Shown here: in pieces, positions 9,263 through 54,940 of the stretch
Layout: every line of letters begins with the position of its first letter
Numbering within the stretch: position 1 is the first letter of the stretch
Assembly (NCBI GenBank): GCA_018822845.1
Contig: JAHJJD010000052.1
Span: 1-64,000 of the forward strand
DNA from: Gammaproteobacteria bacterium
GTDB lineage: Bacteria > Pseudomonadota > Gammaproteobacteria > Thiotrichales > Thiotrichaceae
DNA: 64,000 nucleotides
Reading direction: 5' to 3'
The notes under the pieces: model-generated
The model's input: the letters and a program-made list of their open reading frames with translations, nothing else
Database searches by the model: none
What the model was told of the DNA's origin: nothing
Position numbers and translations under genes: made by a program

Positions 9263-9271
9263 GCTTTGTGC

Positions 9272-13262: not shown

Positions 13263-13293
13263 AATCGGGTGATTACAGAAGGAAGGATAAAAC

Positions 13294-13764: not shown

Positions 13765-13803
13765 TAGATAAACATAATCAGCAGCTTATCCCATGGCTGC
13801 ATG

Positions 13804-13836
13804 AAAGCCCGGCCTTATGTATCGGGCTTTTTGTTT
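13804..13836 (+). terminator. intrinsic terminator after ssb
   Basis: The stem AAAGCCCG (13804-13811) pairs with CGGGCTTT (13823-13830) and is followed by TTGTTT. It begins 40 bases after the ssb stop. Confidence 0.85.
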
Positions 13837-14092
13837 AATTCATATTAAAAATCAGCAACTTCAACTAGGGAAAACCCTAATAGAGATGCATGTCTTCCTG
13901 GGTTGTCAGTGCGCCGAATCTTGCTAGAATCCATCTGTGCTTGAGGCAATAAAGCGCAAAGACGCATAGCTAGGAGGAAAACCCAAGCACATATTTCACG
14001 TTGTGACAGCGTCATAATAATTACAAACAATCAAGCCAAAAAACTAAAAGAAGCTAATTGGGGGCCAGATAAACTGGCCCTTCTTGTTTTTT
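13837..14092 (+). ncRNA. candidate untranslated RNA or leader between two terminators (unidentified)
   Basis: No convincing reading frame fills this 256-base stretch. It lies between the ssb terminator and a second strong terminator at 14061-14092. A 7-bp stem GTGCTTG (13937-13943) / CAAGCAC (13984-13990) encloses a purine-rich loop containing GCGCAAAGACGC. It could be a small RNA with its own terminator, or an attenuated leader of the histidine kinase gene 90 bases further on. The CAAAG core only loosely recalls the c-di-GMP (GEMM) riboswitch, and I do not assign that family. Confidence 0.3.
14061..14092 (+). terminator. intrinsic terminator upstream of the histidine kinase
   Basis: GGGCCAG (14062-14068), loop ATAAA and CTGGCCC (14074-14080) are followed by TTCTTGTTTTTT. 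Its position 90 bases before the kinase start means it either ends a small RNA or attenuates kinase expression. Confidence 0.8.
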
Positions 14093-14181
14093 ATGGGGGG
14101 TTTTTCAAAAAAGCGAATAAAATCAATATATCTTTCCCGAAATTGACTATCATCAGCCGAGACCAGATAAAAAGGATGAAC

Positions 14182-15474
14182 ATGATCACAAAGGCTTCGC
14201 CTGCTTCCTCACAATCTGTTACCCGGCCTGAAACACTTGATAAAACTGACCATGCAAAGCAAACGGCCAAGGAACTGGAAGCGGCCAATCTGGAATTGAA
14301 AATTGCCAATGAGCGTCTGCTGCATGAAATTGAGGAGCGCAAGTGGGCTGAAGCCCGTCTGGAAATAGAACACGCCAGACTCGACACCATTTTCCAAAGC
14401 CAACCCAACTGGATTAATATTTGTACACTGGATAGTCGTATTCAGGAGGTCAACCCTGCTGGCCCCATCATCATGGAAGCTGATGGCCCTGAACAGTTGA
14501 TTGGCCGCTCTCTCAGGGATTTTGTCATACCCGAATACCAGCAGGAGGTGGACAAATGTATTGCCAACATCCTCCAGACCGGTGAATCACACCCGCATGA
14601 AGTCCAGGTCAAAACCTTCAGGGGAAACACACGCTGGTTGACAGTACGCCCTGTATTGATCCATCTGGATAATGATGAGCTGCGTATCATGTCCATCATT
14701 ATCGACCATACCGACCGCCAGCTTGCCCAGATCAAACTGGCAGAACGCCAACGGGAACTCGCCCACATCATGCGCCTCAATACGCTGGGTGAAATGGCTT
14801 CTGGCATCGCCCACGAACTCAACCAGCCGCTGTCAGCCATTGCCAATTACATACGCGGCTGTGAACTGCGCATGCAAAACAGTGAATGTAACATGGAGAG
14901 CATTACCGAAGTCATGCGGCTCGTCAGCGTTCAGGTCAAGCGGGCAGGTGAAATCCTGCGTTACGCCAAGGACTTTACCCGTAAGGATCAGGACATCGAA
15001 TGGCTGGAACTCAACATCAGCGAAATTATCAATGACACCCTGCACCTAATGGAAACTACTGAACAGTTCAAACAGGTAAAGTTGATCAAGAACCTGTACC
15101 CTGAACCGCTCATGGTCAACGTAAACAAAATCCAGATCGAACAGGTGCTGGTTAACATGGTATTGAACGCACTGGACTCCATCAGGGAAAGCAACCTGCC
15201 AGACGGCGGTACGCTGGAAATACGCACGGAATTGCCCGATGCGCAGCATGTCCGGGTATCCATCATTGATGACGGCTCCGGTTTGCCTGATGGATACGAA
15301 GACAAGATCTTTCGCCCTTTTTATACCAGCAAAAAGGACGGAATGGGAATGGGGTTGCCTATTAGCAGTTCCATTATTGAAGCCCACAGTGGTAAGCTTG
15401 TGGCCAGTAACAACAGTGAAAAAGGCGCAACTTTTTATTTCACATTACCGATAAAAGGAACATCACGCCAATGA
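14182..15474 (+). CDS. soluble PAS-domain sensor histidine kinase (FixL/DctB-like)
   Basis: About 430 residues with no transmembrane helix, so a cytoplasmic sensor. A short N-terminal coiled coil (about 20-65) leads into one PAS domain (about 65-180, with NICTLDSRIQEVNPAG and a PAC-like end). A HisKA region follows with H211 in GEMASGIAHELNQPLSAI. The ATPase domain has an N-box near NMVLNALDSI and G-boxes DDGSGLPDG and GMGMGLPIS. The HELNQPL form of the H-box is that of the FixL/DctB/TodS group. I prefer the ATG at 14182 because AAGGA lies 6 bases upstream; earlier in-frame starts exist. It overlaps the response regulator start by 4 bases. The signal is unknown. Confidence 0.85.
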   Translation: MITKASPASSQSVTRPETLDKTDHAKQTAKELEAANLELKIANERLLHEIEERKWAEARLEIEHARLDTIFQSQPNWINICTLDSRIQEVNPAGPIIMEADGPEQLIGRSLRDFVIPEYQQEVDKCIANILQTGESHPHEVQVKTFRGNTRWLTVRPVLIHLDNDELRIMSIIIDHTDRQLAQIKLAERQRELAHIMRLNTLGEMASGIAHELNQPLSAIANYIRGCELRMQNSECNMESITEVMRLVSVQVKRAGEILRYAKDFTRKDQDIEWLELNISEIINDTLHLMETTEQFKQVKLIKNLYPEPLMVNVNKIQIEQVLVNMVLNALDSIRESNLPDGGTLEIRTELPDAQHVRVSIIDDGSGLPDGYEDKIFRPFYTSKKDGMGMGLPISSSIIEAHSGKLVASNNSEKGATFYFTLPIKGTSRQ

Positions 15475-16085
15475 ATTACCCGCCTACAGTCTTTATCGTT
15501 GACGATGACCCTGCCGTGCGAGACTCTCTACGCTGGCTGCTGGAATCCATGCACCTGAAAGTCGCCACATTCGGGTCTGCGGAAGAATTCATCAAGTTTT
15601 ACACCATGCACATGATCGGTTGTCTGGTGCTGGATGTCCGCATGCCCGGCATGAGTGGCCTGCAATTGCAGCAGTACCTGAGCAAACAGAAGCATTCCCT
15701 GCCGATCATTTTCATTACCGGACACGGCGATATCCCGATGGCGGTGCGCGCCATGCAGGCAGGGGCGATGTATTTTCTGGAAAAACCGTTTGAGGATCAG
15801 GTATTGCTCGACTACGTGCACGAAGCGCTGGTACTGGACAAGGAATATCAGCAGTCGCGCATCCGCCTGACCATGATTCAGGCGCGTATATCCAACCTTA
15901 CCGAGCGCGAGCGTGAAGTTATGGATCTGGTCATTGGCAACCATTCCAACAAGGAAATTGCCGCAAGGCTAGGCGTCAGCATCAAAACGGTTGAGTTTCA
16001 CCGCAGCCATATGATGGAAAAAATGCACGCCACTTCCCTCATTGAGCTGGTCAACATGACAATGGAAGCAGCGGGCGACGAGTAG
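15471..16085 (+). CDS. FixJ/NarL-type response regulator
   Basis: A 204-residue regulator. The receiver domain (about 6-120) has the acidic cluster DDD11-13, phosphoacceptor D55 in VLDVRMPGMSG, the signalling Thr/Gly in FITGHGD and the conserved Lys in LEKPFEDQ. A LuxR-type helix-turn-helix at about 138-200 (LTEREREVMDLVIGNHSNKEIAARLG) binds DNA. The TGYxE-like architecture and the partner kinase are those of FixJ/TodT systems. The start codon overlaps the kinase stop (ATGA), which couples translation. Its stop lies 4 bases before the convergent gene, and a small CGAGTA/TACTCG hairpin sits at that junction. Confidence 0.92.
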   Translation: MNYPPTVFIVDDDPAVRDSLRWLLESMHLKVATFGSAEEFIKFYTMHMIGCLVLDVRMPGMSGLQLQQYLSKQKHSLPIIFITGHGDIPMAVRAMQAGAMYFLEKPFEDQVLLDYVHEALVLDKEYQQSRIRLTMIQARISNLTEREREVMDLVIGNHSNKEIAARLGVSIKTVEFHRSHMMEKMHATSLIELVNMTMEAAGDE

Positions 16086-16089
16086 TGTC

Positions 16090-16803
16090 TTACTCGAAGC
16101 CCTGCCCTATCCAGGTAGCGAAGGTTTCATGGAACATCAGGTCAACCAGTTCTTCGTGGATGGCCTCTTCCACATCTTCCGCTGTGTATTCCTGCTCCTC
16201 AGTGCGGGCTGTTTCTTCCATCTCGGTGCGTACCTGTTGCAGGTAGGCCAGAATGTCTTCAGCCTCCTTGCGTTCAACTGGCAGTAAGCCGAAGCCGAAA
16301 GTCTGTTCACCGTTGGGCAGGCGTAACAGTCGTGCAGCAATACACAGGTTCTGGGGTATACGGTCTGCTTCCATCGGTACCTGCACGGCAGATTCGTCGC
16401 TCCCCATACGTTTGACGTTGGCATACTCGCCAGCCTTGACGCCAACAACTTCCCACAAGGCTAACTTGGACTCGCTGAGGGCATGCAGGTACTGACAGGC
16501 AAACGATGCTTTGTCTTCCTGCACACGAGTGCGCATGAATTCCTTCAGCACGCTTTCGCCGCCTTCATTGGTTTCAGTGGTAACGAAGTGTTCGAATACA
16601 TGGGCATGGGCCATCTGGCCGAGGGGCTGCTCTTCAAGGTAATCCAGCACCTCGTCGGCAGACAGTTCCAGCATTTCGGCGGCATAGGCAATGGCATCAG
16701 TAAAAACCTCAACCATCCACTCCTCCCACGGTTCCTTGGCGATGTGGCCGCTGAGCAGTTCCATTGCGGCATCGACCTGTGTTTGCTGTTCCGTAGTTAT
16801 CAC
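16090..16803 (-). CDS. uncharacterised acidic cytoplasmic protein
   Basis: A 237-residue acidic protein that I do not recognise. It has no signal peptide or membrane segment. It is helix-rich, with a Glu-dense C-terminal half (RKEAEDILAYLQQV, RTEEQEYTAEDVEEAIHEE). I start it at the GTG at 16803, which has AAAGGA 9-14 bases upstream; the frame stays open further upstream but that region shows no gene-like composition. It lies divergently from the SWIM-SNF2 helicase, with about 146 bases between the two starts. A functional link to the helicase is possible but unproven. Confidence 0.7.
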   Translation of the reverse strand: MITTEQQTQVDAAMELLSGHIAKEPWEEWMVEVFTDAIAYAAEMLELSADEVLDYLEEQPLGQMAHAHVFEHFVTTETNEGGESVLKEFMRTRVQEDKASFACQYLHALSESKLALWEVVGVKAGEYANVKRMGSDESAVQVPMEADRIPQNLCIAARLLRLPNGEQTFGFGLLPVERKEAEDILAYLQQVRTEMEETARTEEQEYTAEDVEEAIHEELVDLMFHETFATWIGQGFE

Positions 16804-43753: not shown

Positions 43754-43847
43754 ATCCTCTTGGCGGTGTGTGGAGCTGAAGAATATAATCACATTCTAAT
43801 AGACCTGATCAAAACACAAACGACTCCTGCAACTGAGAGCTAGCAGT

Positions 43848-44363
43848 ATGATAAGTAAAGGTATATCGGGCAAAGGGCGGAATACCGCCATCATGTTTGC
43901 AACGCTGATGCTGTTCTGGCTGATGCTGAACGGCAAACTGGAAGCCGACATCCTCATCGTCGGTGCCCTGGTTGCGCTGGTCATTGCCGTGTTGTATCGC
44001 GATGGCCTGTCTTTCTTCACTGAGTTCCGTTTCACCCCTGCGGCTTTCATCGCCGGTTTTGGCTACTACGGCTACTTTTTCAAGGAGCTGTTCAAATCCA
44101 ATATCAAGCTGGCGGCCATCGTGCTGTCGCCTTCCCTGCCGGTCAAGCCTGCCATCGTCAAGGTACGCACCAAGCTCAAAACCCGCATGGGGCGGCTGAT
44201 GCTGGCCAATTCCATCACCCTGACGCCGGGGACGCTAACGGTGGAGATGGAGGGCGAGTGGCTGTACGTGCACTGGGTACGGATGGAAGCCGACGCTATT
44301 GAGGAAGCCACTGCGCGCATTGTCAGCGGGTTCGAGTCCTATCTTGAGGTGATGTATGGTTGA
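43848..44363 (+). CDS. mrpE: Mrp-type antiporter subunit E (MbhA/MbxA-like)
   Basis: A 171-residue membrane subunit with N-terminal helices at about 15-52 and one at about 62-80. A soluble domain follows with the MrpE signatures SPSLPVKPAIVKVRT, RLMLANSITLTPGTLTVEMEGEWLYVHWV. It is the first gene of a 13-gene operon and overlaps the next by 8 bases. In Mbh/Mbx complexes this subunit belongs to the Na+-translocating membrane module. A typical ribosome site is not obvious. Confidence 0.92.
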   Translation: MISKGISGKGRNTAIMFATLMLFWLMLNGKLEADILIVGALVALVIAVLYRDGLSFFTEFRFTPAAFIAGFGYYGYFFKELFKSNIKLAAIVLSPSLPVKPAIVKVRTKLKTRMGRLMLANSITLTPGTLTVEMEGEWLYVHWVRMEADAIEEATARIVSGFESYLEVMYG

Positions 44364-44616
44364 AATCCTGATCATGCTGGCCGCCGGTCTGGCCGGAGCC
44401 GCATTCCTGCTGGCCTTGGTGCGTTTCATCCGTGGCCCTTCGCGGCTTGACCGGGTGGTGGCGTTTGACGTGCTGACCGTTATTGCCATTACCTTCATCG
44501 TGCTAGCGGCGCTGGTGGAAAACCGGGGAATTTATCTGGATGCGGCGCTGGTCTATGCGCTGTTGTCTTTCCTCGGTGTCATCTCTATTGCCCGTTATCT
44601 GGAGGGGCGTTTCTGA
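44356..44616 (+). CDS. mrpF: Mrp-type antiporter subunit F (MbhB/MbxB-like)
   Basis: 86 residues with three helices and the conserved RFIRGPSRLDRVVAFDVLTV loop of MrpF. It ends SFLGVISIARYLEGRF, as in other MrpF proteins. It overlaps mrpE by 8 bases and mrpG by 1 base, consistent with translational coupling and fixed stoichiometry. Confidence 0.93.
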   Translation: MVEILIMLAAGLAGAAFLLALVRFIRGPSRLDRVVAFDVLTVIAITFIVLAALVENRGIYLDAALVYALLSFLGVISIARYLEGRF

Positions 44617-44954
44617 TGGGTCTGATCCTCGACATTATCGGCGGGCTGCTGCTGGTGGGCGGCGCGTCCTTCCTGCTGTTTGGCGGGCTGGGGCTGGTGC
44701 GGATGCCGGATATTTACAACCGCATCCAGGCAGGCGCGAAAACCACCACACTAGGCACACTGCTGACACTGGCTGGCGCGGCCTGCCTGCAACCGGCCTG
44801 GGGCTGGAAGCTGTTGCTGATCGGCGTGTTCCTGATTTTTACCAATCCGGTTTCCGCGCAAGTGCTGGCGAATACTGCCCATCGGCGTGGGGCAGAAAAA
44901 TCCCCCCTGACCAAAATCGACCGTCTGGCTGAAGACCAGGAGGGTAAAGCATGA
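44616..44954 (+). CDS. mrpG: Mrp-type antiporter subunit G (MbhC/MbxC-like)
   Basis: 112 residues with three helices. The motif GGLGLVRMPDIYNRIQAGAKTTTLGT is the MrpG signature (RMPDxYxRxHAxTKxxTLG), and ANTAHRRGAEKSP follows the last helix. It begins on the last base of the mrpF stop and overlaps the next gene by 4 bases. Confidence 0.93.
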   Translation: MGLILDIIGGLLLVGGASFLLFGGLGLVRMPDIYNRIQAGAKTTTLGTLLTLAGAACLQPAWGWKLLLIGVFLIFTNPVSAQVLANTAHRRGAEKSPLTKIDRLAEDQEGKA

Positions 44955-45205
44955 GTATGGTGTTGATTGCCATCGCTACGTTGCTGACGATAGCCATGAT
45001 CGGTGCGGCATGGGTGACCATCCGTGCCAAAAAAGTCGCTACTGCCATGCTGGCGGCGGGGCTGGTAAGTTTGTTTGCTTCGGTCATGTTCCTGTTCCTC
45101 GCCGCACCGGATGTGGCAATGACGGAAGCCGCCATTGGCAGCGGCCTGACCACCTTCCTGTTCTTCTTTGTACTCGGACGGGTACGGGGAGGCAGCGATG
45201 ATTAG
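44951..45205 (+). CDS. MbhD-like subunit (DUF4040, equivalent to part of MrpA)
   Basis: 84 residues with three helices and the motif FLAAPDVAMTEAAIGSGLTTFLF, which matches the C-terminal DUF4040 part of MrpA and the separate MbhD/MbxD subunit. The TEAAIG glutamate is conserved in the family and thought to lie on the ion path. Its existence as a separate small gene is a feature of Mbh/Mbx-type operons rather than of classical seven-gene mrp operons. Confidence 0.88.
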   Translation: MSMVLIAIATLLTIAMIGAAWVTIRAKKVATAMLAAGLVSLFASVMFLFLAAPDVAMTEAAIGSGLTTFLFFFVLGRVRGGSDD

Positions 45206-45899
45206 GAATTTTGCCGTTTTCCTGCTGTTGCTGGGGCTGGGCGCGATTTTCCTGCACCTGCTGGACGGTTATGTCCCGGCCAGCGAACTCAACCAGACCG
45301 CCCGTTACTACGCGGAACATACCGCGCAGGATTTGGGCGCTGCCAATATCGTCACCGCCATCATCGTCACCTATCGGGGGCTGGATACGCTTGGGGAAGT
45401 CACCGTGCTGTTCCTCGCTTCCACCATCATCGGCATGGTATTGGCGCAAGGCAGCAAGCGTCAGCGCGCGTTGCAACGCAAACTGCCAGCTTCCGGCGAA
45501 TTGCTCACAACGGGCAGCCGCTTGCTGGTGCCGCTGATTTTGCTGTTCGGTGCGTATGTATTCGTCAATGGTCATCTGACACCCGGCGGTGGTTTTCAGG
45601 GCGGCGCAATTATCGCGTCGGCAGCACTGCTGGTGCTACTGACTGATCCGCTCAAGCGTTTCAGCCACAAGCTGATTGCGCTAGTGGAATCCATTTCCGG
45701 CCTGGTATTCGTCGGGGTTGGCGTGCTGGGCATGCTGTTGGCAGGCGGCTTCCTTGACAACCGCATTCTGCCGACTGGCGAATTCGGGGCGCTGTTCTCC
45801 GCCGGAGCCATTCCGCTTATCTACAGTTTCGTCGGCCTGAAAGTCGGCGCGGAATTCACCTCAATGCTGACCAATCTGGCAGAAACGGAGAAATCATAA
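45198..45899 (+). CDS. fused MbhE-like / MrpB subunit (MbxF-like)
   Basis: 233 residues. The N-terminal 95 (LLLGLGAIFLHLLDGYVP...IVTAIIVTYRGLDTLGEVTVLF) match the MbhE-type segment with the RGLDTLGE loop. The C-terminal part (about 105-230) is MrpB, with the hallmark FVNGHLTPGGGFQGGAIIASA. I use the ATG at 45198, which overlaps the previous gene by 8 bases; a start at 45168 would overlap more. In archaeal operons MbhE and MbhF are separate and in Mbx they are merged, as here. Confidence 0.87.
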   Translation: MIRNFAVFLLLLGLGAIFLHLLDGYVPASELNQTARYYAEHTAQDLGAANIVTAIIVTYRGLDTLGEVTVLFLASTIIGMVLAQGSKRQRALQRKLPASGELLTTGSRLLVPLILLFGAYVFVNGHLTPGGGFQGGAIIASAALLVLLTDPLKRFSHKLIALVESISGLVFVGVGVLGMLLAGGFLDNRILPTGEFGALFSAGAIPLIYSFVGLKVGAEFTSMLTNLAETEKS

Positions 45900-46255
45900 T
45901 GGACTGGATTGCAATGGCCACCGGTTTCATCCTGATCCTGATGGGACTGTATGGCGCACTGACCGAGCGTAACATCCTGCGCATCATTGTGTCGTTCACG
46001 GTCGCCAATACCGGGGTGAATCTGGTGCTGGTGGCGGTGGGCTACATGCACGGGCGTACTGCGCCGATTCTGGACAAGACTGTCCCTGTTGCCGAAGCGG
46101 TTGCGCGCATCATCGACCCGGTGCCGCAGGCGCTGGTGCTGACCGCTATCGTGATCGGCCTTGGCGTTACTGCGATGATGCTGACCTACGCCTACAAGCT
46201 TTATGAAGAAAAAGGCACGCTGGATGTCTCCAAATGCAGGGATCTGAAATGGTAA
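45899..46255 (+). CDS. mrpC: Mrp-type antiporter subunit C (NuoK/MbxG-like)
   Basis: 118 residues with three helices. NuoK/MrpC signatures are GLYGALTERNILRIIVSFTVANTGVNLVLV and DPVPQALVLTAIVIGLGVTAMML. The buried acidic residue of NuoK helix 2 is represented in the first of these. It starts on the last base of the preceding stop and overlaps the following gene by 7 bases (ATGGTAA). Confidence 0.93.
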   Translation: MDWIAMATGFILILMGLYGALTERNILRIIVSFTVANTGVNLVLVAVGYMHGRTAPILDKTVPVAEAVARIIDPVPQALVLTAIVIGLGVTAMMLTYAYKLYEEKGTLDVSKCRDLKW

Positions 46256-49200
46256 GCCCAATGTATATCATTGCTGCCGGGTTGGGCGGGGCTTTCCTGC
46301 TGGGCCTGTTGCCGAACAAGTGGCGGACTATCCCTTACGCCATTACGCTGGCTATCCTGGGAATCATGGCGTGGATTGCCGGAAGCTGGCTGTATGCGTT
46401 TGCGGTGCAAGGCGCTGCCAGCGTGGAAATTTTCACCGCAGGCACGCAGCCGCCGTTTGCGATCAATTTCCGGGTCGGGCTGGCGGAAGCCTCGCTAGCC
46501 TTGCTGACCACACTGGTCGGGCTGCATTCCGCGCTGTACATGAAAGACACCCTGTTCAAACAGGGGCGGCAGGCGATGGCGGTACTGCTGATTTTCATCA
46601 TGGCGTTATGCGGGGTCATTTTTACCCGCGACGTATTCAACCTGTTTGTGTTCATGGAGCTGGTAGTCATCGCCACTGCCGGGCTGGTGCTATTGTCGGC
46701 TGACCGGCGGGCGCTGGGCGCTGGCATCAAGTACCTGATCGTGTCGCAACTGGTATCCATCCTGCTGCTGGTGGGCATCATCTTCCTGTATCACGCCACT
46801 GGCACGCTGAACATTGACGACATGGCAGCCGCGCAGGTCAACCTGCTGCAAGGCGGTGCAATGGCGTTTTTCCTGCTGTTTGTCGCGGTGCTGGCAGAGT
46901 TGAAACCGTTCCCGGCGAATGGCTGGGGGCTGGATATTTACGAGTCGGCGCATCCAGCGTTTTCGGCAATTTTCTCCACCGCAACGGGTGGGGCAACCAT
47001 CTACGCGGCAGACAAGATGTTGCAGATTGGTGGCGCGGAATGGCTACCGGCGGCAACAGCGATTGGCATCGTCACCTTCGTGGCCGCCAATATCTTTGCG
47101 CTGGTACAGAATAATGACCGGCGCTTGCTGGGTTATTCATCGGTGGCGCAGATTGGCCTGCTCCTCACTGTGGCGGGGCAACGCGATATTCTGGGTGACG
47201 CCTATTACTACGTTGCGGGCGGTATTTTGCTGGCTCATGCGGTATCCAAAGCCGGGCTATTCTGGTTGTCCGGGCTGGTAGCGCAACGGGAACTGACCGA
47301 TTGGGCCGCACTACGCAGCCAGCCCGTGCTGGTGTTCGCGTTTGCCACGTTCCTTGCCTTGCTGGTGGGTTTGCCGCCCTTCCCCGGTTTCTATGCGAAA
47401 TGGGATCTGGCGCATCATCTGGCGGCTGAGGGCAGGCTGTGGCTGCTGGGGCTGATCCTGTTCGGGGCGCTGGTGGAAGCGGCTTATTTGTTCCGCTGGT
47501 TTGGCTATGTGATCAAGCGTGAAGCCAGGGAAAATGGCCTGGCATGGCAATCAGTCAAGGCTGACGTGGCATTCAGTGCGGTGATTGTGGCCTGGTTGCT
47601 GGCGTATTTGTGGGGGCATTTGTCCGGTCATGGCAACCTGTTGCACGCCGTTCCGTTGCTGTTTGCGCTGCTGTTCCTGCCGCTGGACTGGCTGCCTGCC
47701 AAACTCAAGAACGTGCTGGCCATTAGCGGGTTGCTGTACTGGTTCTACCTGAACTATCCGTCTTACGACCCGTTGCAATTGATCTTTGCGGCGGTGATGT
47801 TGCCGGGTGGGGCGCTGATCCTGCTGGCCAGTTTCCAGACGCAAAAACGGCGGGTAGGCTTCTATCCGGCTGCGATGCTGATGTTTGCCGGGCTGGCGAT
47901 GCTGATTGTGGCGAAAAGCTCGTTCGATTTCTTTGCGGCGTGGGAGTTGCTGACGGTGGGTTCGTATTTCCTGATCCTGCGAGGCAAGCATTCCGAGCCT
48001 CATGCGCTGTCGTACCTGGTTTTCTCGCTGGGTGGCGCATTCCTGATCCTGGCCGGGTTTGCGATTGCGGCGCAGGGTGCGCCTGACTTCAAGCTGGCGG
48101 CGCTGGCGCAAGTGGCGCAACCGTATGCACCGTGGGTATTTGCCATGCTGGCGATTGGTTTCATGACCAAAACGGCAGCAGTGGGCGTGCATATCTGGCT
48201 GCCCGGCGCACATGCCGAAGCGGAAACCGATGTGTCGCCGATGGTGTCCGGCATCCTGTTGAAAGCTGGGCTGTTCGGCCTGTTCATGCTGCTAATTACG
48301 ATGGGCAAGCAGCAGCTTTACGGGGTAGAACTGACCTATGTGATGCTGTGGATTGGCGCAATTTCGGCGCTGATCGGCAACCTGATGGCCATTTTCCAGG
48401 AGGACGCCAAGCGCTTGCTGGCCTATTCCTCTATCGGGCAGATGGGCTATGCAGTGTTTGGTCTGGCGTTGATGAACCATCTGGGCTGGCTGATGGCGCT
48501 GATGTTCGTCATCAACCATTATATTTACAAGTCGATGCTGTTCCTGTCAGTGGGTGGCATTGCCAAGCGCACCGGCACGCGCCTGATGTACCGTATGGGT
48601 GGGCTGATCACGCTGATGCCGCTGTCGTTCATTGCGGTGATGATCGGCATTATTGCGATGTCGGGTGTGCCGCCGCTGTCTGGTTTCGGCGGGCGCTGGA
48701 TTTTCTACAATGCGATCATGACGGCGGAATACCGCTTGCCAATGGTGATTGTGTTCCTCGCCGGGCCAATTGCGTTCCTGTACCTGTTCCGGCTGATCCA
48801 CACCATTTTCCTCGGGCAGTTGAAGGATGAAATGCGCAAGATCAAGGAAGCGCCGTTCTGGATCGTGCTGCCGCAGATGATTTTCGTGGTCGCGCTGATG
48901 GTGTTCGCGCTGGTTCCCGGCCTGGCACTGCGCAAGGTGGATCTCTATATGACGCAATTCTTTGCGGGGAATGGCCACCTGAACTGGGAAGGGCTGACCA
49001 TCAGCAGCGATTTCGGCTACTGGAACCCGGTCGCCATCATGGTCATCATCGGGGTGATTTTCATGACATTGTTCCTGTGGCTGCTATTCGTTAACCGCAA
49101 GGCACAGCCGGTGAAACAGTTCAATATCGTGTTCTCAGGCGAACGTCCGTTCCGCCCGGAGACTACCCATTTTGCGTGGAATTTCTTCGCGCCTTACCGC

Positions 49201-49383
49201 AAGGCTTTGGGCTTCCTGACCCAGCCGCTGGTGACCATTTTCTGGGAAACAGTCAGTGAGTTGCTGCATTCGGCGGCGGACATCCTGCGGCGTTTTTACA
49301 CCGGCAACGGGCAGACTTATGCGATTCACCTGCTGGGCTTTGTGATCATTGTCTACATGTTGTGGATGGGGGGTAAGCCATGA
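46249..49383 (+). CDS. double antiporter subunit: two MrpD/NuoL-N-like domains fused (MbxH-H'-like)
   Basis: 1044 residues with about 26-28 helices in two antiporter repeats. The first (about 1-480) has the TM5 Glu in VFNLFVFMELVVIA and the TM7 Lys in FVAVLAELKPFPANGWG, then NNDRRLLGYSSVAQIG. The second (about 510-900) has FFAAWELLTVGSYF and GFMTKTAAVGVHIWLPGAHAEAETDVSPMVSGILLKAG, then FQEDAKRLLAYSSIGQMGY. The Glu-Lys pairs needed for ion pumping are kept in both. A linker with about three helices joins them, and a C-terminal helical tail (about 930-1044) follows. In P. furiosus Mbx/Mbs these are separate genes, H and H'. It starts at the ATG at 46249, overlapping mrpC. Confidence 0.9.
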   Translation: MVSPMYIIAAGLGGAFLLGLLPNKWRTIPYAITLAILGIMAWIAGSWLYAFAVQGAASVEIFTAGTQPPFAINFRVGLAEASLALLTTLVGLHSALYMKDTLFKQGRQAMAVLLIFIMALCGVIFTRDVFNLFVFMELVVIATAGLVLLSADRRALGAGIKYLIVSQLVSILLLVGIIFLYHATGTLNIDDMAAAQVNLLQGGAMAFFLLFVAVLAELKPFPANGWGLDIYESAHPAFSAIFSTATGGATIYAADKMLQIGGAEWLPAATAIGIVTFVAANIFALVQNNDRRLLGYSSVAQIGLLLTVAGQRDILGDAYYYVAGGILLAHAVSKAGLFWLSGLVAQRELTDWAALRSQPVLVFAFATFLALLVGLPPFPGFYAKWDLAHHLAAEGRLWLLGLILFGALVEAAYLFRWFGYVIKREARENGLAWQSVKADVAFSAVIVAWLLAYLWGHLSGHGNLLHAVPLLFALLFLPLDWLPAKLKNVLAISGLLYWFYLNYPSYDPLQLIFAAVMLPGGALILLASFQTQKRRVGFYPAAMLMFAGLAMLIVAKSSFDFFAAWELLTVGSYFLILRGKHSEPHALSYLVFSLGGAFLILAGFAIAAQGAPDFKLAALAQVAQPYAPWVFAMLAIGFMTKTAAVGVHIWLPGAHAEAETDVSPMVSGILLKAGLFGLFMLLITMGKQQLYGVELTYVMLWIGAISALIGNLMAIFQEDAKRLLAYSSIGQMGYAVFGLALMNHLGWLMALMFVINHYIYKSMLFLSVGGIAKRTGTRLMYRMGGLITLMPLSFIAVMIGIIAMSGVPPLSGFGGRWIFYNAIMTAEYRLPMVIVFLAGPIAFLYLFRLIHTIFLGQLKDEMRKIKEAPFWIVLPQMIFVVALMVFALVPGLALRKVDLYMTQFFAGNGHLNWEGLTISSDFGYWNPVAIMVIIGVIFMTLFLWLLFVNRKAQPVKQFNIVFSGERPFRPETTHFAWNFFAPYRKALGFLTQPLVTIFWETVSELLHSAADILRRFYTGNGQTYAIHLLGFVIIVYMLWMGGKP

Positions 49384-50300
49384 TGGAGGCACTCGTGGAA
49401 TTCAACTGGATGCGCATTCCGTGGGCATTGCTGACAGTGTTCATCGTCTTTAACTACGGTTTCCTGATGACAGCGCTGATCCAGAAAATCGCGGCGCGGG
49501 TGGGTCGGCGGCATGGCATCCCGATCTGGCAGAATTATATTGACCTGATTAAGAACTATGCGCTGCGTACCTCCATTACCCATGGGGTGATGTTCTATCT
49601 GGGGCCGGTGTTCCGGCTGTCTGGCGGGGTGGGCTTGTTGCTGTTCGTGCCGACCATTTACGGCTCGGACATGTTCAGCAATTTCTCGTTTGCGGGCGAC
49701 CTGATTCTGGCGCTGTATTTCGTGTTCTTCGGCACGCTGGGCATGGCATTGGGGGCGGCGGAAAGCGGGCATCCCTATTCCGCCATTGGCATTACCCGTG
49801 GGCTGTCGCAAATGACGGCAGCGGAATTGCCATTTGCACTAGCGGTGTTTGCGGTGGCGCTGCAATATCAGACACTTTCCATCACCGACATCGTGGCGGC
49901 GCAACAGGGCGGCGTACTGAACTGGACGCTGTTCACCAACCCGTTTGCGGTAGCGGCGGCAATGATGTCGTTCCTGGGTTCGATGATGCGCCCGCCGTTT
50001 GACGTGGTGCTGGCTCCGCAGGAAATTCCCATCGGCCCACCGACCGAATACCATTCCTCGTTCCTGGCCATGATGCAGACCAACCGGGCGCTGTTCCCGA
50101 TCGCCAAGATTGTGGTGTACATGAACCTGTTCTTTGGCGGTGCGGCAAGCTGGCCGGTGTTGTTCCTCAAGGTATTCCTGATTTACATGGTATCGGCGTT
50201 TGTCGGCGTGGTGTTCCCGCGTTTCCGGGTGGAACAGTCGATCCGCTGGTTTTTAATCTGGGCAGTGCCGCTGGGCATCCTCGCCGTGGTACTGGTGTAA
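49380..50300 (+). CDS. NuoH-like membrane subunit (MbxM/EchB/HyfC type)
   Basis: 306 residues with eight predicted helices. Characteristic segments are the cytoplasmic loop HGIPIWQNYIDLIKNY, GMALGAAESGHPYSAIGITRGLSQM and SMMRPPFDVVLAPQEIPIGPPTEYHS, which face the NuoB/NuoD-like subunits and form the coupling cavity. It belongs to the short hydrogenase-type NuoH group rather than the respiratory complex I group. It overlaps the previous gene by 4 bases. Confidence 0.92.
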   Translation: MMEALVEFNWMRIPWALLTVFIVFNYGFLMTALIQKIAARVGRRHGIPIWQNYIDLIKNYALRTSITHGVMFYLGPVFRLSGGVGLLLFVPTIYGSDMFSNFSFAGDLILALYFVFFGTLGMALGAAESGHPYSAIGITRGLSQMTAAELPFALAVFAVALQYQTLSITDIVAAQQGGVLNWTLFTNPFAVAAAMMSFLGSMMRPPFDVVLAPQEIPIGPPTEYHSSFLAMMQTNRALFPIAKIVVYMNLFFGGAASWPVLFLKVFLIYMVSAFVGVVFPRFRVEQSIRWFLIWAVPLGILAVVLV

Positions 50301-50304
50301 GGTT

Positions 50305-50946
50305 ATGAAAGAAGAATTACTTAAACGCATCGTCAAAACGCCCGACGGTCAGGAGATCGAGGTTGACCCGCTGTTGGATTATTACTGTCAGGAAGGGCCG
50401 ACGGTACAGCCGCCCGCTTACACCGCGATTATCGAGAAGCTGTTCAACTGGGCGCGTTCCGAGTCGCTGTGGATTCTGGGTTTCGGCACGGGCTGCGGGG
50501 CGATTGAAATGCGCCCGCTGATGACACCGCGTTTCGACGCTTACCGTTACGGCATCCAGTGGCGGCCTACCCCGCGCCAGTCCAACCTGTTCGTGATTTC
50601 CGGCTACCTTTCCACCAAGACGCTCAAGCGCGTGATCCGCTCCTACGAGCAGATGCAGGGGCCGAAATACGTGGTGGGCTTAGGGTCATGCACCATCAAC
50701 GGCGGCATGTACTGGGATTCCTATAACACCATCAAGCGGCTGGACGATTACCTGCCGGTAGATGTGTACATCGCTGGCTGTATGCCGCGCCCGGAAGCCT
50801 TGTTGGCCGGGTTTGAAGAACTGAAAAAGATCATCCGCGCAGGCAAGGCGGAAGGCGCAAATCTGTATGCCAAGAACTTTGAATGGTACAAGGCAAACCA
50901 GAAAAGCGTCATCCACGACTGGGACATGCCGGACTACAACTGGTGA
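50305..50946 (+). CDS. NuoB-like iron-sulfur subunit lacking one tandem cysteine (MbxJ-like)
   Basis: 213 residues. NuoB normally binds the N2 cluster with four cysteines, including an adjacent pair. Here the corresponding positions are C64 in FGTGCGAIEM (the next residue is Gly, not Cys), C129 in GLGSCTINGGMY and C159 in IAGCMPRPEALL. Only three ligands remain, so the cluster would have an open or differently liganded iron. This fits the site-differentiated cluster proposed for archaeal MBS better than complex I. The order H-B-C-D follows MbxM-J-K-L. It overlaps the next gene by 1 base (TGATG). Confidence 0.92.
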   Translation: MKEELLKRIVKTPDGQEIEVDPLLDYYCQEGPTVQPPAYTAIIEKLFNWARSESLWILGFGTGCGAIEMRPLMTPRFDAYRYGIQWRPTPRQSNLFVISGYLSTKTLKRVIRSYEQMQGPKYVVGLGSCTINGGMYWDSYNTIKRLDDYLPVDVYIAGCMPRPEALLAGFEELKKIIRAGKAEGANLYAKNFEWYKANQKSVIHDWDMPDYNW

Positions 50947-51488
50947 TGGTTATGCAGGCACTTTACGACACCTTGAAACAACGCTTCCCGCTCGGTGAAC
51001 TGACCGTGCAGCGCGACAATCTGGCCTTCATCACCGTGGAAGCGGTGCGGCTGTACCCGCTGCTGCGCTACCTGCGCGACCACGAAGGCTTCAGCCATCT
51101 GGTGCTGCTGACAGCAGTGGACTGGCTGGAAGACGGGCAATTCCAGCTTACTTACCTGCTCAACAACCGCGCCAAGTGCCAGGATGTGGGTTTGCGGGTG
51201 ATGATTCCGCGCGACAAGCCGGAAATGGAAAGTATCCACGACCTGTGGCCTGCCGCCGCTACTTACCAGCGCGAACTGCGGGAAATGTTCGGCATAGACT
51301 TTCCCGGCAGCCCGCGACTTGAGGAAGAATTCATCCTCGAAGGCTGGCACGGCATCCCGCCCTACCGGCGCGACTTCGACACGCTGGCGTATGCACGCGA
51401 AACCTTCCGCGACCGCCCCGGACGTGAAACCCGCGACCCGGCACAACACATGAAACAACAACTGTACGGGGACAAAGGCGATGTTTGA
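50946..51488 (+). CDS. NuoC-like subunit (MbxK-like)
   Basis: 180 residues. The conserved 30-kDa subunit motif is ELREMFGIDFPGSPRLEEEFILEGWHGIPPYRRDF, preceded by VLLTAVDWLEDGQFQLTYLLNN. I start at the ATG at 50946, which overlaps the NuoB-like stop. The subunit scaffolds the NuoD-like subunit in all members of the superfamily. No fusion with NuoD is present, unlike in many enterobacteria. Confidence 0.92.
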   Translation: MVMQALYDTLKQRFPLGELTVQRDNLAFITVEAVRLYPLLRYLRDHEGFSHLVLLTAVDWLEDGQFQLTYLLNNRAKCQDVGLRVMIPRDKPEMESIHDLWPAAATYQRELREMFGIDFPGSPRLEEEFILEGWHGIPPYRRDFDTLAYARETFRDRPGRETRDPAQHMKQQLYGDKGDV

Positions 51489-52653
51489 GTTAGACCGCAG
51501 CCAGTACCCGCAAAAGAAGCCTGACGGCACACTGGACATTGATCTCAGTTCCGGCAAATACCTGAAGCTTTGGCAAGGCCCACAGCATCCCGGCATCACC
51601 GGCAATATGGCGATCGAGCTGACCGTATGCGGCGACGAAGTGGTGGAAGGCAAAACCCACGTCGGCTACCTGCACCGTGGCTTTGAAAAGCTGATGGAAC
51701 GCCGCACCTTCATGCAGTGCTTCCCTATCGTCTGCCGCATTTGCGTTCCCGAACCCGATTTCAACGAATACTGCTACGCCGCCGCCGTGGAAGAACTCGC
51801 CGGGCTGGAAGTGCCGGAAATGGCTAACTGGATCCGTACCCTGATCCTGGAAATGGGGCGCATCAACAGCTACCTGATGTACCTCGGCGGGCAGGCAGGC
51901 GCACTCGGCCTCGGCGTCATCGGCCAATGGACAACTTACGTGCGTGACCTGATGCTCGACCGTTTCGAGGAACTGACTGGCGCACGCATCTACCACATGT
52001 TCATTCTCCCCGGCGGGGTGCGTGACCGGCTGCCGGAAGGTTTCGCCGGACGCATGGAAAAAGCCCTACAAGAAATCGAAAGCACCCTCGGCGATGTCGA
52101 AAAGGTGATGTTCCACAATGCCGTGTTCAAGAAGCGCACCGTCGGTGTTGGCGTGATTGAAGCAGGCTGGGTGGACAGTTACGGCATCACTGGCCCCAAT
52201 GCCCGCGCCGCCGGAGTCGCCAAAGACGTGCGTAAAGACCAGCCCTATCTGGTCTACCCCGAACTTGATTTCGAGCTTGTCACTGGCAAGGATTCCGACA
52301 TTTACGCCCGCGCCGATGTGCGCCGCCGCGACCTGCTGCTGTCGGTCGATTTGATCCGGCAAATACTGGCGAAAATGCCTAAAACCGGCGAAGTGATGGC
52401 GAAATTACCCAACGTGCTACACTGGAAAATACCGCGAGGCGAAACCTATGTGCGTGGAGAATGTTCACGCGGTGAATACGGCTACTACCTTGTTACCGAT
52501 GGCAGCGGTTACCCGCGCCGGGTGAATGTGCGTGGGCCTTCTTACACACATTCCATCGCGCTGTTTGAACGTATGGTGATCAACGCCAATATTTCCGATG
52601 TCGCCGCCCTGCTGGTGTCGCTCCATACCTATCCGCCGGAGATCGAACGATGA
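51481..52653 (+). CDS. NuoD-like catalytic-fold subunit without NiFe ligands (MbxL-like)
   Basis: 390 residues of the NiFe-hydrogenase large-subunit/NuoD fold. GPQHPGITGNMAIEL and GYLHRGFEKLMERR are family signatures. At the hydrogenase RxCxxC site the sequence is FPIVCRICVPEPDFNEYC: C85 and C88 are present but the second NiFe cysteine is replaced. The C-terminus (SLHTYPPEIER) lacks the DPCxxC pair. It is therefore not a hydrogenase. The quinone-site His of NuoD (HPSTHG) is Gly here. Residual cysteines near the cluster of the NuoB-like subunit may matter for catalysis. It overlaps its neighbours by 8 and 4 bases. Confidence 0.92.
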   Translation: MFELDRSQYPQKKPDGTLDIDLSSGKYLKLWQGPQHPGITGNMAIELTVCGDEVVEGKTHVGYLHRGFEKLMERRTFMQCFPIVCRICVPEPDFNEYCYAAAVEELAGLEVPEMANWIRTLILEMGRINSYLMYLGGQAGALGLGVIGQWTTYVRDLMLDRFEELTGARIYHMFILPGGVRDRLPEGFAGRMEKALQEIESTLGDVEKVMFHNAVFKKRTVGVGVIEAGWVDSYGITGPNARAAGVAKDVRKDQPYLVYPELDFELVTGKDSDIYARADVRRRDLLLSVDLIRQILAKMPKTGEVMAKLPNVLHWKIPRGETYVRGECSRGEYGYYLVTDGSGYPRRVNVRGPSYTHSIALFERMVINANISDVAALLVSLHTYPPEIER

Positions 52654-54449
52654 TCCGTGACGTGCTATCCCCTTTCACCGCGTGGAAAAACCTGTTCCGC
52701 GAACCGGTGACCATCAAAGACCCGCTCAACGAACGCCCCGGTTCTGCCCGCTATCGCGGCTTCCACCAGAACGACCTGGACAAGTGCATCGGCTGCGGCA
52801 CGTGCGAAACCATCTGCCAGAACGGTGCAATCGACATGCTGCCGGTGGACGGTGTGCCAGCCAAACTGGGCGATTCCGGCCTGCGCCCACGCATCGACTA
52901 CGGGCGCTGCTGCTGGTGTGCGCTGTGCGTGGATGTGTGCATGACCGGCTCGCTCACCATGTCCAACGAATACAAGTGGATCGAAAGTGACCCGGACAAA
53001 TACCTTTACATGCCGGGGGTGGACAAGAAGCACTGGGATAATGCCGAACTGGGCTACCGGCGGCATGAAGAACGCCACCTCTCCCCCGGCGATCGTGTGG
53101 ACATGCCTGAACTGCACGCCGAAGAACGTATCGGTTCCTTCATCGAAATGGTCAAGGGCTATGACATTGCCCAGGCACAACTGGAAGCCGACCGCTGTGT
53201 ATCCTGCGGACTGTGCATTGCCTCCTGCCCGGCACACATGGCAATTCCTGATTACATCAAGGCAGTGCGTAACGGCGACTACGAGCGCGGTGTGCAACTG
53301 CTGTACGAAACCAACCCGTTCTCGCAGGTGTGTGGTAGAGTTTGCACCCATTGCTGCGAAAGCGCCTGTGCCGCCCGCCACGAAGGCGACCCGATTGCCA
53401 TCCGCTGGCTCAAGCGCCACATCATTGATCAGGTTCCACAAGAACGGATTCTGCAACTGATCGGCAAACCGGCTGCCCCGACCGGCAAGAAAGTCGCCAT
53501 CGTTGGCGCAGGCCCCGCTGGCTTGACCACTGCGTTTGACCTTGCCCGTCTGGGTCACGCTGTCACGGTGTTTGAAGCGCAGGCAGCAGGCGGCGGCATG
53601 ACCCGCTACGGTATCCCCGAATATCGCTTGCCCTACGACGCGCTGGATCGGGACATTGCCGTGATCACCGCGATGGGTGTCGAAATCAAGTACAACCACC
53701 GTGTCGGCACGGACATTTCCATGCAGCAACTGGAAACGGACTATGACGCCGTAGTGTTGGCAATCGGCCTGCATCAGGGGCGTTCCACCCGCATCCCCGG
53801 TTCCGACCACCCGCAGGTGCGCAAGGCCGTTGACTTGCTGCGCCAGATTACGACGGGTGAAAAAATTGACGTACCCAAGTCCATGGTGGTGATCGGCGGT
53901 GGCAACGTGGCGATGGACATTGCCCGCAGCATGGCGCGTTTGCAAATGCAGCAATACGGCGAAATCCGCGTGACCCTGACCGCGCTGGAAGACAAGGCAC
54001 ATTTCCTCGCCGACCCGGTAGAGGTGAAGGAATCCATCGAAGAACAGATCAACATCCTCGATAGCCGTGGCCCCCAAGCCTGCGTGATCGACGCCGACGG
54101 CAAGCTGCTCGGGCTGAAAACCTGGAAAGTGCTGTCCATCTTCGACGAGGATCGCCGCTTTGCCCCTAAATATGACCCAGCAGATGAACAAATTCACGAA
54201 GGCAAAATGATCGTCGAAGCGATCGGTCAAATGGCGGATGTCAGCCTGCTCGGCGATGCCCTCACCGAAAAACTGGAATGGAACCGTGGCCGCATCCAGA
54301 TTGACCCGAACGGACGCACGTCCGAACACTGGCTGTGGTCGGCAGGCGATTGCGTCAAAGGCCCGGATGTCATCAATGCCGTGGCAGATGGACACCGCGT
54401 CGCCACCAGCATCCACTGCGTATTGACCCAACAGGAAGCAAAGATATGA
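52650..54449 (+). CDS. fusion of NuoI-like 8Fe-ferredoxin and GltD/NfnL-type FAD-NAD(P)H oxidoreductase
   Basis: 599 residues. Residues 40-105 are an 8Fe ferredoxin with C46/C49/C52/C56 and C87/C90/C93/C97, equivalent to NuoI/MbxN. From about 155 a full GltD-like unit begins. Its own cluster cysteines are C183/C186/C189/C193 and the VCGRVCTHCCESAC group. FAD binds at VAIVGAGPAGLTTAF (284-298) and NAD(P) at VVIGGGNVAMDIARS (about 413-427). The C-terminal SAGDCVKGPDVINAVADG closes the FAD site. The fusion would carry electrons from NAD(P)H through the ferredoxin clusters to the NuoB-like subunit, or the reverse. It overlaps the NuoD-like gene by 4 bases and the diiron gene by 4 bases. Confidence 0.92.
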   Translation: MIRDVLSPFTAWKNLFREPVTIKDPLNERPGSARYRGFHQNDLDKCIGCGTCETICQNGAIDMLPVDGVPAKLGDSGLRPRIDYGRCCWCALCVDVCMTGSLTMSNEYKWIESDPDKYLYMPGVDKKHWDNAELGYRRHEERHLSPGDRVDMPELHAEERIGSFIEMVKGYDIAQAQLEADRCVSCGLCIASCPAHMAIPDYIKAVRNGDYERGVQLLYETNPFSQVCGRVCTHCCESACAARHEGDPIAIRWLKRHIIDQVPQERILQLIGKPAAPTGKKVAIVGAGPAGLTTAFDLARLGHAVTVFEAQAAGGGMTRYGIPEYRLPYDALDRDIAVITAMGVEIKYNHRVGTDISMQQLETDYDAVVLAIGLHQGRSTRIPGSDHPQVRKAVDLLRQITTGEKIDVPKSMVVIGGGNVAMDIARSMARLQMQQYGEIRVTLTALEDKAHFLADPVEVKESIEEQINILDSRGPQACVIDADGKLLGLKTWKVLSIFDEDRRFAPKYDPADEQIHEGKMIVEAIGQMADVSLLGDALTEKLEWNRGRIQIDPNGRTSEHWLWSAGDCVKGPDVINAVADGHRVATSIHCVLTQQEAKI

Positions 54450-54940
54450 GCGAAGCCAGCATTGAACGGCTGAAAAGCAAAACCACCCTGAAGGAAATCC
54501 TGGCAGTCGCCACCGAATTTGAACGTACCGCCCGTGATTTCTACACGGCCCTTGCCCCCAAAGTGCAGAAGAACATCCGCTACCTAGTGCAGGAACTGGC
54601 GGAAGAAGAACAGCGCCACTACGACCTGTTTACCCAACTGGCGGAACGCACCGACCTGGAGCAACAACTACAAGTCGAAGTGGAACGCCCGGTCAGTGAC
54701 CACAAGTTTTCCGACTGCATCCACTTGCCCGACCTTGGCGAACAGCCGGACGATCAGGCGGTGCTGCAATACGCGCTGATGCGGGAACATGCGGCGATGG
54801 AACAGTATCACTCACTGGCGCAGAGTACAGAATCAGGGCCGATCCACGACCTCTTCCTGTTTTTGGCCAATGAAGAAACCAAACACAAAAATGAGCTAGA
54901 AAAGGTTTACTATGAGACGGTGCATAGCGGCGGAGTATAA
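54446..54940 (+). CDS. rubrerythrin/ferritin-like diiron protein
   Basis: 164 residues forming a four-helix bundle. The diiron ligand pattern is E26-x6-Y33, E55-x2-H58 in EEEQRHYD, E114-x6-Y121, and E144-x2-H147 in ANEETKHKNE, as in rubrerythrins and related sulerythrins. There is no C-terminal rubredoxin domain. The ATG overlaps the oxidoreductase stop (ATGA), so it is part of the operon. It might reduce peroxide with NAD(P)H-derived electrons or protect the sensitive FeS complex. A structural role is also possible. Confidence 0.87.
   Translation: MSEASIERLKSKTTLKEILAVATEFERTARDFYTALAPKVQKNIRYLVQELAEEEQRHYDLFTQLAERTDLEQQLQVEVERPVSDHKFSDCIHLPDLGEQPDDQAVLQYALMREHAAMEQYHSLAQSTESGPIHDLFLFLANEETKHKNELEKVYYETVHSGGV

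Follow-up and report, generated by a model that had tools for sequence, protein, structure and literature searches.

The locus

A run of 13 open reading frames (ORFs) occupies positions 43848-54940 on the + strand of a 64,000-nucleotide stretch of gammaproteobacterial DNA (hereafter the window), tightly packed, with neighbours overlapping or lying a few bases apart. Judged from their sequences, these genes encode a membrane complex of the branch represented by the Pyrococcus furiosus enzyme MBS (formerly Mbx; PDB 6U8Y), and not a complex I or a NiFe hydrogenase, as a sequence-only reading of the same DNA had proposed. The gene families named in that reading were confirmed by Pfam and NCBIfam matches on the 13 ORFs. 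The window is part of a 4.0 Mb genome (G000, contig C33) whose nearest named relatives are Thiothrix (gene 12 identity up to 89%), in agreement with the proteobacterial host suggested earlier. The genes are as follows:

43848..44363, + strand, MrpE/MbsA-like (Pfam MNHE, 6e-38)
44356..44616, + strand, MrpF/MbsB-like (Pfam MrpF_PhaF, 1e-17)
44616..44954, + strand, MrpG/MbsC-like (Pfam PhaG_MnhG_YufB, 1e-22)
44951..45205, + strand, MbhD/MbsD-like (Pfam MbhD, 1e-17)
45198..45899, + strand, fused MbhE-MrpB subunit (Pfam MnhB, 2e-24; MbhE, 5e-8)
45899..46255, + strand, MrpC/MbsG-like (Pfam Oxidored_q2, 1e-23)
46234..49383, + strand, double antiporter-like subunit, MbsH (N half) fused to MbsH' (C half) (two Proton_antipo_M domains; PDB matches)
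49380..50300, + strand, NuoH/MbsM-like (Pfam NADHdh; 6u8y_M 141 bits, second match 48.5)
50305..50946, + strand, NuoB/MbsJ-like, with three-cysteine proximal cluster site (Pfam Oxidored_q6; 6u8y_J 225 bits; motif GTGCG)
50946..51488, + strand, NuoC/MbsK-like (Pfam Complex1_30kDa, 5e-28, on a longer ORF)
51481..52653, + strand, NuoD/MbsL-like, without NiFe cysteine pairs or quinone His/Tyr (Pfam Complex1_49kDa; 6u8y_L 323 bits; tree)
52650..54449, + strand, gene 12, MbsN/NuoI (two [4Fe-4S]) joined to an NfnL-type flavoprotein (two [4Fe-4S], flavin adenine dinucleotide (FAD), predicted NAD(H)) without a YRR motif (Fer4, Fer4_20 and Pyr_redox_2)
54446..54940, + strand, diiron rubrerythrin-like protein without rubredoxin domain (Pfam Rubrerythrin on a longer ORF; ligand positions)

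Three starts differ from those listed for the ORFs: judged from the sequence, ATG 45198 is likelier than TTG 45168 for MbhE-MrpB and ATG 50946 likelier than 50883 for NuoC/MbsK, and 54446, which gives an ATGA overlap, is better for rubrerythrin than GTG 54335, which falls within gene 12. The gene order is shared with P. furiosus mbx/mbs, as had been noticed from the sequence, and the search for the same order that had been proposed found it, whole or partial and far above chance, in Thiothrix and other proteobacteria. The comparison set used below comprises the window and 35 loci, which include three forms: A (that of the window), B and C.

A core of the MBS type

Searches of the PDB covered subunits L, J and M, the double antiporter and gene 12, and P. 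furiosus MBS came first for every core part queried. For L (NuoD-like), the MBS subunit is followed by Nqo4 (214 bits) and MBH (135 bits), and the second match of J (NuoB-like) reaches 132 bits; in contrast, a query with E. coli HycE places 6u8y_L only tenth. The double antiporter subunit, recognized as such beforehand, proved to be MbsH fused to MbsH': it matches MbsH' (6u8y_X) at 183 bits over residues 452-1040 (the C half), then MBH 6cfw_H at 149 bits spanning both halves, and third 6u8y_H at 137 bits over the whole chain, the best stretch lying in the N half (12-263). Compared with MbsH', it retains E571, K646 and K677, with H336 replaced by F758 and K399 by R821. The NuoI part of gene 12 has MbsN (81 bits) as its top match among NuoI-type PDB entries.

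In a tree of the L subunit, MBS and all sequences of types A, B and C form one clade (100/100), apart from NuoD, MBH and HycE, and the clade with MBS was recovered in an extended tree with more rows; both trees have long outgroup branches, about which the tree program warned. Locus L008 was left out of all trees: in this Ca. Thiothrix singaporensis locus, the L-subunit gene (8832-10001) is broken into several pieces over frames, probably through sequencing errors. Placement of the NuoB- and NuoD-like subunits within complex I or active hydrogenases had been named as the result that would speak against an MBS-like complex; the L tree and the PDB scores of J and L keep them with MBS.

In MBS, polysulfide is reduced at a proximal [4Fe-4S] cluster whose ligands are MbsJ C28, C93 and C123, and counterparts of Nqo4 H38 and Y87 or of MbhL E21 are absent (PMC7684303). 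All 32 aligned sequences, including that of the window, retain the three cysteines, carry T or E in place of H38 and V in place of Y87, and lack the counterpart of MbhL E21. The residue following C28 is G in 31/32, the other being a type C sequence with a complex-I-like CC, so that the cysteines are kept without a CC pair in 17/17 A, 11/11 B and 3/4 C sequences. With three cluster cysteines retained and both quinone-binding residues lost, the active site looks like that of MBS. Two further cysteines vary: at the position of MbsJ C25, a non-ligand in MBS, types A and C have G and type B has C, and MbsL C385 is Y in type A. Another feature shared with MBS is the Mrp-like arm, whose two antiporter-like units form one chain in the window form and two in type B.

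These data bear on two relatives within the same superfamily, respiratory complex I and the group 4 NiFe hydrogenases, which form separate clades and whose active-site residues are missing here. Type A retains only one of the four NiFe-binding cysteines, and residues and L tree together ruled out a NiFe hydrogenase. A variant complex I, transferring electrons from NADH to quinone, was rejected on PDB scores, residues and the L tree; generic NuoB/C/D/H/I homology and the single CC-bearing type C sequence would suit it, but the replacement of H38 and Y87 in 32/32 sequences, the lack of CC in 31/32, a clade separate from NuoD and the presence of an ordinary NuoD elsewhere in the host genome (L082) make it highly improbable. 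Other contigs of the host genome (G000:C129 and C8; L001-L004) hold additional matches to NiFe-hydrogenase large subunits, one of which spans the whole profile.

A NuoI-flavoprotein fusion with a predicted preference for NAD(H)

Gene 12 had been described as NuoI-like. It does contain a NuoI domain, but the gene is a single 599-amino-acid (aa) ORF in which this domain is joined to a complete NfnL/GltD-type flavoprotein of Fer4_20 plus Pyr_redox_2 architecture, scoring 882 bits against the NCBIfam model NF010590/PRK13984 (cut-off 946). Its four cysteine tetrads are conserved in 31/31 sequences (16/16 A, 11/11 B, 4/4 C). In a predicted structure (pLDDT 81, pTM 0.79), which is poor in the NuoI part (residues 1-36, 58-62, 80-89 and 107-134 under pLDDT 50), the best match is NfnL (5jca_L, E 5.7e-45, target TM 0.88). 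In this prediction the C-terminal part shares the fold of NfnL of Nfn (5JCA, 4YLF); the window operon differs in having neither a gene for the NfnS partner nor a YRR motif.

In Thermotoga maritima NfnB, YRR binds the phosphate of NADP, and DsrL proteins with YRR use NADP(H), whereas those without it prefer or need NAD(H), absence of YRR and use of NAD(H) going with sulfur oxidizers (PMC7596348). YRR is absent from 28/28 A and B sequences and present in 4/4 C sequences. Because the window form lacks the motif, its cofactor is predicted to be NAD(H), which narrows the NAD(P)H module proposed earlier. DsrL-1 is a comparable protein, an NfnL-family iron-sulfur flavoprotein of sulfur oxidizers with reverse Dsr (rDsr), without YRR and with a preference for NAD(H) (PMC7596348), but its ferredoxin part is at the other end and its partner is rDsrAB. 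Three DsrL-like proteins near dsrA (L101, L102 and L104, named by position and length only) also lack YRR; identity between gene 12 and the DsrL-like proteins near dsrA is only 30-33%. Another 15 loci of the L022 phylum, 9/15 without YRR and 6/15 with it, weakened the idea that lack of the motif is a mark of sulfur oxidizers; since non-YRR forms occur there, sulfur oxidizers are not alone in lacking YRR.

Different histories of core and flavoprotein

The groups A, B and C were named after the identity table had been seen, and the p-values of the approximately unbiased (AU) tests, which used the first trees and not the extended ones, therefore do not come from a blind test. Type A comprises 20 rows including the window (Thiothrix, Gallionella, Sideroxydans and other metagenome-assembled genomes), with L 81-92% identical. 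Type B consists of 11 loci from a class survey plus the partial L098 and has the gene order of the window, rubrerythrin included, with MbhD not found in L092 as the sole exception; H and H' are separate genes, and identity to the window is only 43-48% for L but 57-65% for the flavoprotein half and 52-73% for rubrerythrin. Type C is made up of two class-survey loci, L097 and L099, and of L022 and L023, whose titles are Cloacimonadota and Melioribacteraceae; here L is 55-63% and the flavoprotein half 37-41% identical to the window, and L099 has MbhD and MrpG in reversed order.

In the L tree, A pairs with C (100/98) and A+B is rejected (p-AU 9e-6), as it is for J (p-AU 0.006); in the tree of the flavoprotein half, A pairs with B (100/100) and A+C is rejected (p-AU 6e-4). 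Because each tree rejects the grouping of the other, core and flavoprotein half differ in their histories, and the part that handles NAD(P)H seems to have moved from one core to another. The truncated L021, L024 and L025 were left out of the first flavoprotein tree. When ten loci of the L022 phylum were added, the non-YRR flavoproteins formed one clade (100/99) and those with YRR another (99/92), and the extended L tree mixed YRR and non-YRR loci (12/20 A rows entered the extended L tree and 11 the extended flavoprotein tree). The NuoI-domain tree has few well-supported branches and was not used for grouping. The zone of the switch within gene 12 lies at about residues 226-375; a switch point at the NuoI/flavoprotein linker proved wrong, as B overtakes C in identity at about residue 226, and strongly at about 350-375.

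The rubrerythrin

The added diiron module of the sequence-only reading is borne out by a rubrerythrin-like protein of 164 aa, in which the ligand positions (E/ExxH/E/ExxH) are invariant in 26/26 A and B sequences; profile searches of this protein gave no match to the rubredoxin domain of classical rubrerythrin. Its gene directly follows gene 12 in 16/16 A and 12/12 B loci whose contig extends that far (four A contigs end before this position), and it is roughly as conserved as the flavoprotein half. In type C it follows gene 12 in 1/4 loci, at 30% identity, and the other three gave no match. By identity and position, then, rubrerythrin seems to travel with the A/B flavoprotein.

Among the ten larger loci of the L022 phylum, a rubrerythrin-like gene comes next in L120 and L122 (by eye), both non-YRR, and L121, also non-YRR, has a 27% match behind a CBS-domain-like gene; five YRR loci among the ten gave no rubrerythrin match. 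Weak matches (25-32%) were found in L109, L110 and L113, all non-YRR. An idea that anaerobes lack rubrerythrin was weakened by these loci. Two side observations may be added. A CBS-domain-like protein, a possible regulator, follows the fused-Mbx operon in four of the ten L022-phylum loci inspected by eye (L121, L123, L125, L126), and T. caldifontis (L006) has, from 17338, a second rubrerythrin-like stretch, 82% identical to that of the window and about 5.5 kb downstream of the first.

The constant position of rubrerythrin behind gene 12 in A and B loci and its conservation on a par with the flavoprotein half would suit a complex that is mainly an oxidative-stress device, with NADH-driven peroxide reduction by rubrerythrin and the ion pump secondary, as would a model named PRK12775 that, from its name only, joins an NfnL-like part to a ferritin domain. 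Such a device would not need a 12-gene ion-pumping complex, and most YRR-type relatives inspected are without a rubrerythrin match (3/4 and 5/5); we regard it as very unlikely.

Distribution and co-occurrence with sulfur genes

Carriers were counted in an order sample, with an NF010590 match at E <= 1e-150 as the criterion, in a class sample and in a set of named genomes; the three overlap in part, the genomes are related, and the p-values ignore kinship. Within the order, 11/63 genomes are carriers (9/16 in the genus of the window), and 11/11 carriers are dsrA-positive, compared with 47/63 genomes overall at E <= 1e-20, 43 of them over the family cut-off (p = 0.03). The class sample of 369 genomes holds 16 carriers from 15 families; dsrA (E <= 1e-60) is found in 16/16 carriers vs 117/369 genomes overall (p = 5e-9), the match in one carrier, G325, being partial and under the cut-off. 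Operon surroundings were inspected for all 16 (the window and L085-L099); owing to contig ends, L098 shows only gene 12 and rubrerythrin, and L097 starts at MbhE-MrpB. Of the named carrier genomes (L006-L025, 20 of 53 loci), 18/20 are dsrA-positive at E <= 1e-60, with the match exceeding the cut-off in 15; the exceptions are L022 (Cloacimonadota) and L023 (Melioribacteraceae), neither of them proteobacterial. The co-occurrence of carriers with dsrA, seen in 16/16 class carriers, is new here, and the use of sulfur or polysulfide, which had been suggested from the sequence, gains support from it.

Other genes were compared in the class sample. soxB is present in 16/16 carriers vs 151/369 genomes overall; within soxB-positive genomes, carriers make up 16/105 of those with dsrA and 0/46 of those without (p = 0.003), and within dsrA-positive genomes 16/105 of those with soxB and 0/12 of those without (p = 0.37). 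RuBisCO is found in 13/16 carriers; within RuBisCO-positive genomes, carriers make up 13/102 of those with dsrA and 0/80 of those without. Autotrophy was rejected as the driver of the distribution, carriers within dsrA-positive genomes being 13/102 with RuBisCO vs 3/15 without (p = 0.43).

Outside the proteobacteria, the fusion family occurs in 40/117 genomes of the L022 phylum and, among 14 controls, only in T. maritima; a lack of any counterpart is thus not supported for the composition, of which the sequence-only reading knew no exact characterised example, and a 'putative Mrp-Mbx complex' has also been named in the Riftia symbiont (PMC11636981). Four genomes of the L022 phylum (G445, G467, G483, G537) have two fusion matches each, in G445, G483 and G537 one per score class. 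Carriage on plasmids was rejected: the L subunit has no match at E <= 1e-60 in 72,556 plasmid records.

Proposed function

The MBS-type site, the distribution among sulfur oxidizers and the NAD(H)-type input lead us to consider it likely that the complex is an ion-coupled, reversible NADH:(poly/per)sulfide oxidoreductase, both directions taken together. Since the proteobacterial carriers surveyed are also dsrA-positive, it probably couples the NADH supply of the cell to sulfur or sulfide. We infer the electron path, cofactor, substrate, coupling ion, direction and role of rubrerythrin as follows. Electrons would pass between the FAD of gene 12, where NAD(H) reacts, and the four [4Fe-4S] clusters of the same polypeptide, which in turn would connect to the site-differentiated proximal cluster in the NuoB-like subunit. 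There the S-S bond of a polysulfide or persulfide would be made or broken, and ions would move through the Mrp-like arm in a step coupled to this reaction. The complex would most likely work, in Thiothrix and other sulfur oxidizers that carry dsr, mainly as an ion-gradient-driven oxidizer of sulfide or persulfide that reduces NAD+, a quinone-independent reverse electron transport supplying NADH and leaving polysulfide or sulfur for storage and the Dsr pathway. Rubrerythrin probably takes electrons from the flavoprotein, removing peroxide or O2 near the labile cluster.

This full explanation, with mainly gradient-driven sulfide or persulfide oxidation and NAD+ reduction, is our best one and is tentative, with somewhat less than an even chance of being right. 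That the complex is specifically an ion-gradient-driven, quinone-independent sulfide:NAD+ oxidoreductase, in which an exchangeable NADH-type flavoprotein and rubrerythrin are plugged onto an MBS-like pump, is possible and a degree more doubtful.

As to direction, reduction of polysulfide by NADH releases only about 10 kJ per two electrons. For MBS the figure is 41 kJ per two electrons (PMC7684303), so that an NADH-fed complex with two pumps would be more easily driven backwards. Because of this small drive, and because DsrL-1 of sulfur oxidizers also lacks YRR, we lean to NAD+ reduction, giving reverse electron transport from sulfide to NAD+ a slight edge over sulfur reduction driven by NADH.

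Several observations weigh against this proposal. The dsrA genes of the carriers are assumed to be of the oxidative type known from such proteobacteria. As 16/16 class carriers are also soxB-positive, an effect of dsrA is not separable from one of complete sulfur oxidation; 3/16 class carriers have no RuBisCO match; and no conserved flanking sulfur gene was seen in the loci compared. The YRR-bearing class carriers L097 and L099 are dsrA-positive, and non-YRR flavoproteins occur in the phylum of L022 (the 9/15 loci above), the L022 genome itself showing no dsrA match. MBS is known as a reductase, and mbxA of T. maritima rises with sulfur (PMC9431562). In the Riftia symbiont, MBX has first neighbours in common with genes of the reductive tricarboxylic acid cycle (rTCA), as have the hydrogenases, and not with the Calvin-Benson-Bassham cycle (CBB), to whose side Sox, rDsr and Sqr belong (PMC11636981). 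A different, six-gene Hyf/Mbx-like cluster was argued not to serve sulfur reduction (PMC4053972).

The same enzyme could also work mainly in the opposite direction, NADH from the fermentation of storage polymers reducing stored sulfur or polysulfide under anoxia while Na+ or H+ is pumped, in the manner of MBS, which uses ferredoxin. The small driving force from NADH, the lack of YRR as in the oxidative DsrL-1, and the presence of dsrA in all sampled proteobacterial carriers (and of soxB in all class-sample carriers) argue against such a role; direct homology to MBS, induction of T. maritima mbxA by sulfur (PMC9431562) and co-expression in the Riftia symbiont with rTCA rather than with the CBB-side sulfide oxidation genes (PMC11636981) argue for it. 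We hold it to be possible but rather unlikely.

A third function would be that of an Rnf-like, ion-driven NADH:ferredoxin (or ferredoxin:NAD+) oxidoreductase providing reduced ferredoxin for carbon fixation, the NuoB/D pocket not being a redox site. MbsN passes ferredoxin electrons in MBS (PMC7684303), NfnL works with ferredoxin in Nfn, P. furiosus Mbx has been cited as a ferredoxin:NADP+ oxidoreductase (PMC6349859), and the rTCA co-expression in Endoriftia (PMC11636981) is compatible with it. Yet C28, C93 and C123, retained in all 32 sequences, would then be needless, and the co-occurrence with sulfur genes also speaks against this function, which we consider improbable.

Surroundings and related loci

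A single promoter-like match precedes the first gene (mean 0.4 in shuffles) and is weak:

43760..43789, + strand, sigma-70 type promoter-like match, TTGGCG-18-TATAAT, 10/12

Glycine-cleavage genes lie upstream on the opposite strand, and an ABC_trans_aux/MlaD/PqiA set lies downstream. A search for conserved flanking genes was set aside: by their coordinates, nearly all families present in at least three groups were ORFs that lie within the operon itself, antisense or in another frame. Antisense to gene 12, the window has a 588-aa open frame (52665-54431, - strand) with no Pfam match, probably a codon-bias shadow, and L014 has a 1026-aa ORF (13161-16241) downstream of the operon, with matches in three other loci.

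A GltD-type gene was also seen upstream of NuoB/(C)/D-like genes in L044, L051, L052, L054 and L056 (titled Deltaproteobacteria, Nitrospinae/Nitrospinota and Nitrospirae) and downstream of such genes in L037 (FCPU426). Because the D-like subunits of L037, L044, L052, L054 and L056 group with NuoD in the L tree, these five loci suggest a separate GltD-linked complex I variant.

Known systems and significance

The window complex shares with MBS the gene order, every core part searched, the active-site features described above and the two-antiporter arm. It differs in that MBS receives electrons from ferredoxin at MbsN (PMC7684303), whereas MbsN is here fused to an NfnL-type flavoprotein, and in the fusion of H to H', the changes MbsJ C25 to G and MbsL C385 to Y, and the added rubrerythrin gene. 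The NuoI-flavoprotein fusion itself is not new, since T. maritima also encodes a member of NF010590 (seen as a profile-match control), which we take to be part of its mbx operon. T. maritima has a 13-subunit MBX (PMC9431562), and transfer of an mbx operon to Thermotoga has been described (PMC2246101). The Riftia symbiont is a sulfur oxidizer with rDsr, and its Mrp-Mbx complex, alike by name, was marked as of unknown function and direction (PMC11636981). A literature search, with subscription journals mostly outside its reach, found no report of a fusion that lacks YRR and is paired with rubrerythrin, nor any of the association with dsrA or the module exchange.

Sulfur-oxidizing autotrophs need NADH, and the textbook route, in which quinone-level electrons are pushed uphill through complex I, is costly. 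If the proposal is true, direct coupling between NADH and sulfide or sulfane sulfur would be a cheaper route to NADH than reversal of complex I, and would explain why sulfur-oxidizing proteobacteria have an MBS-type pump. The exchange is also a sign that a relative of complex I had its electron-input end replaced within a single reading frame, which is predicted to make a difference between NADPH and NADH use.

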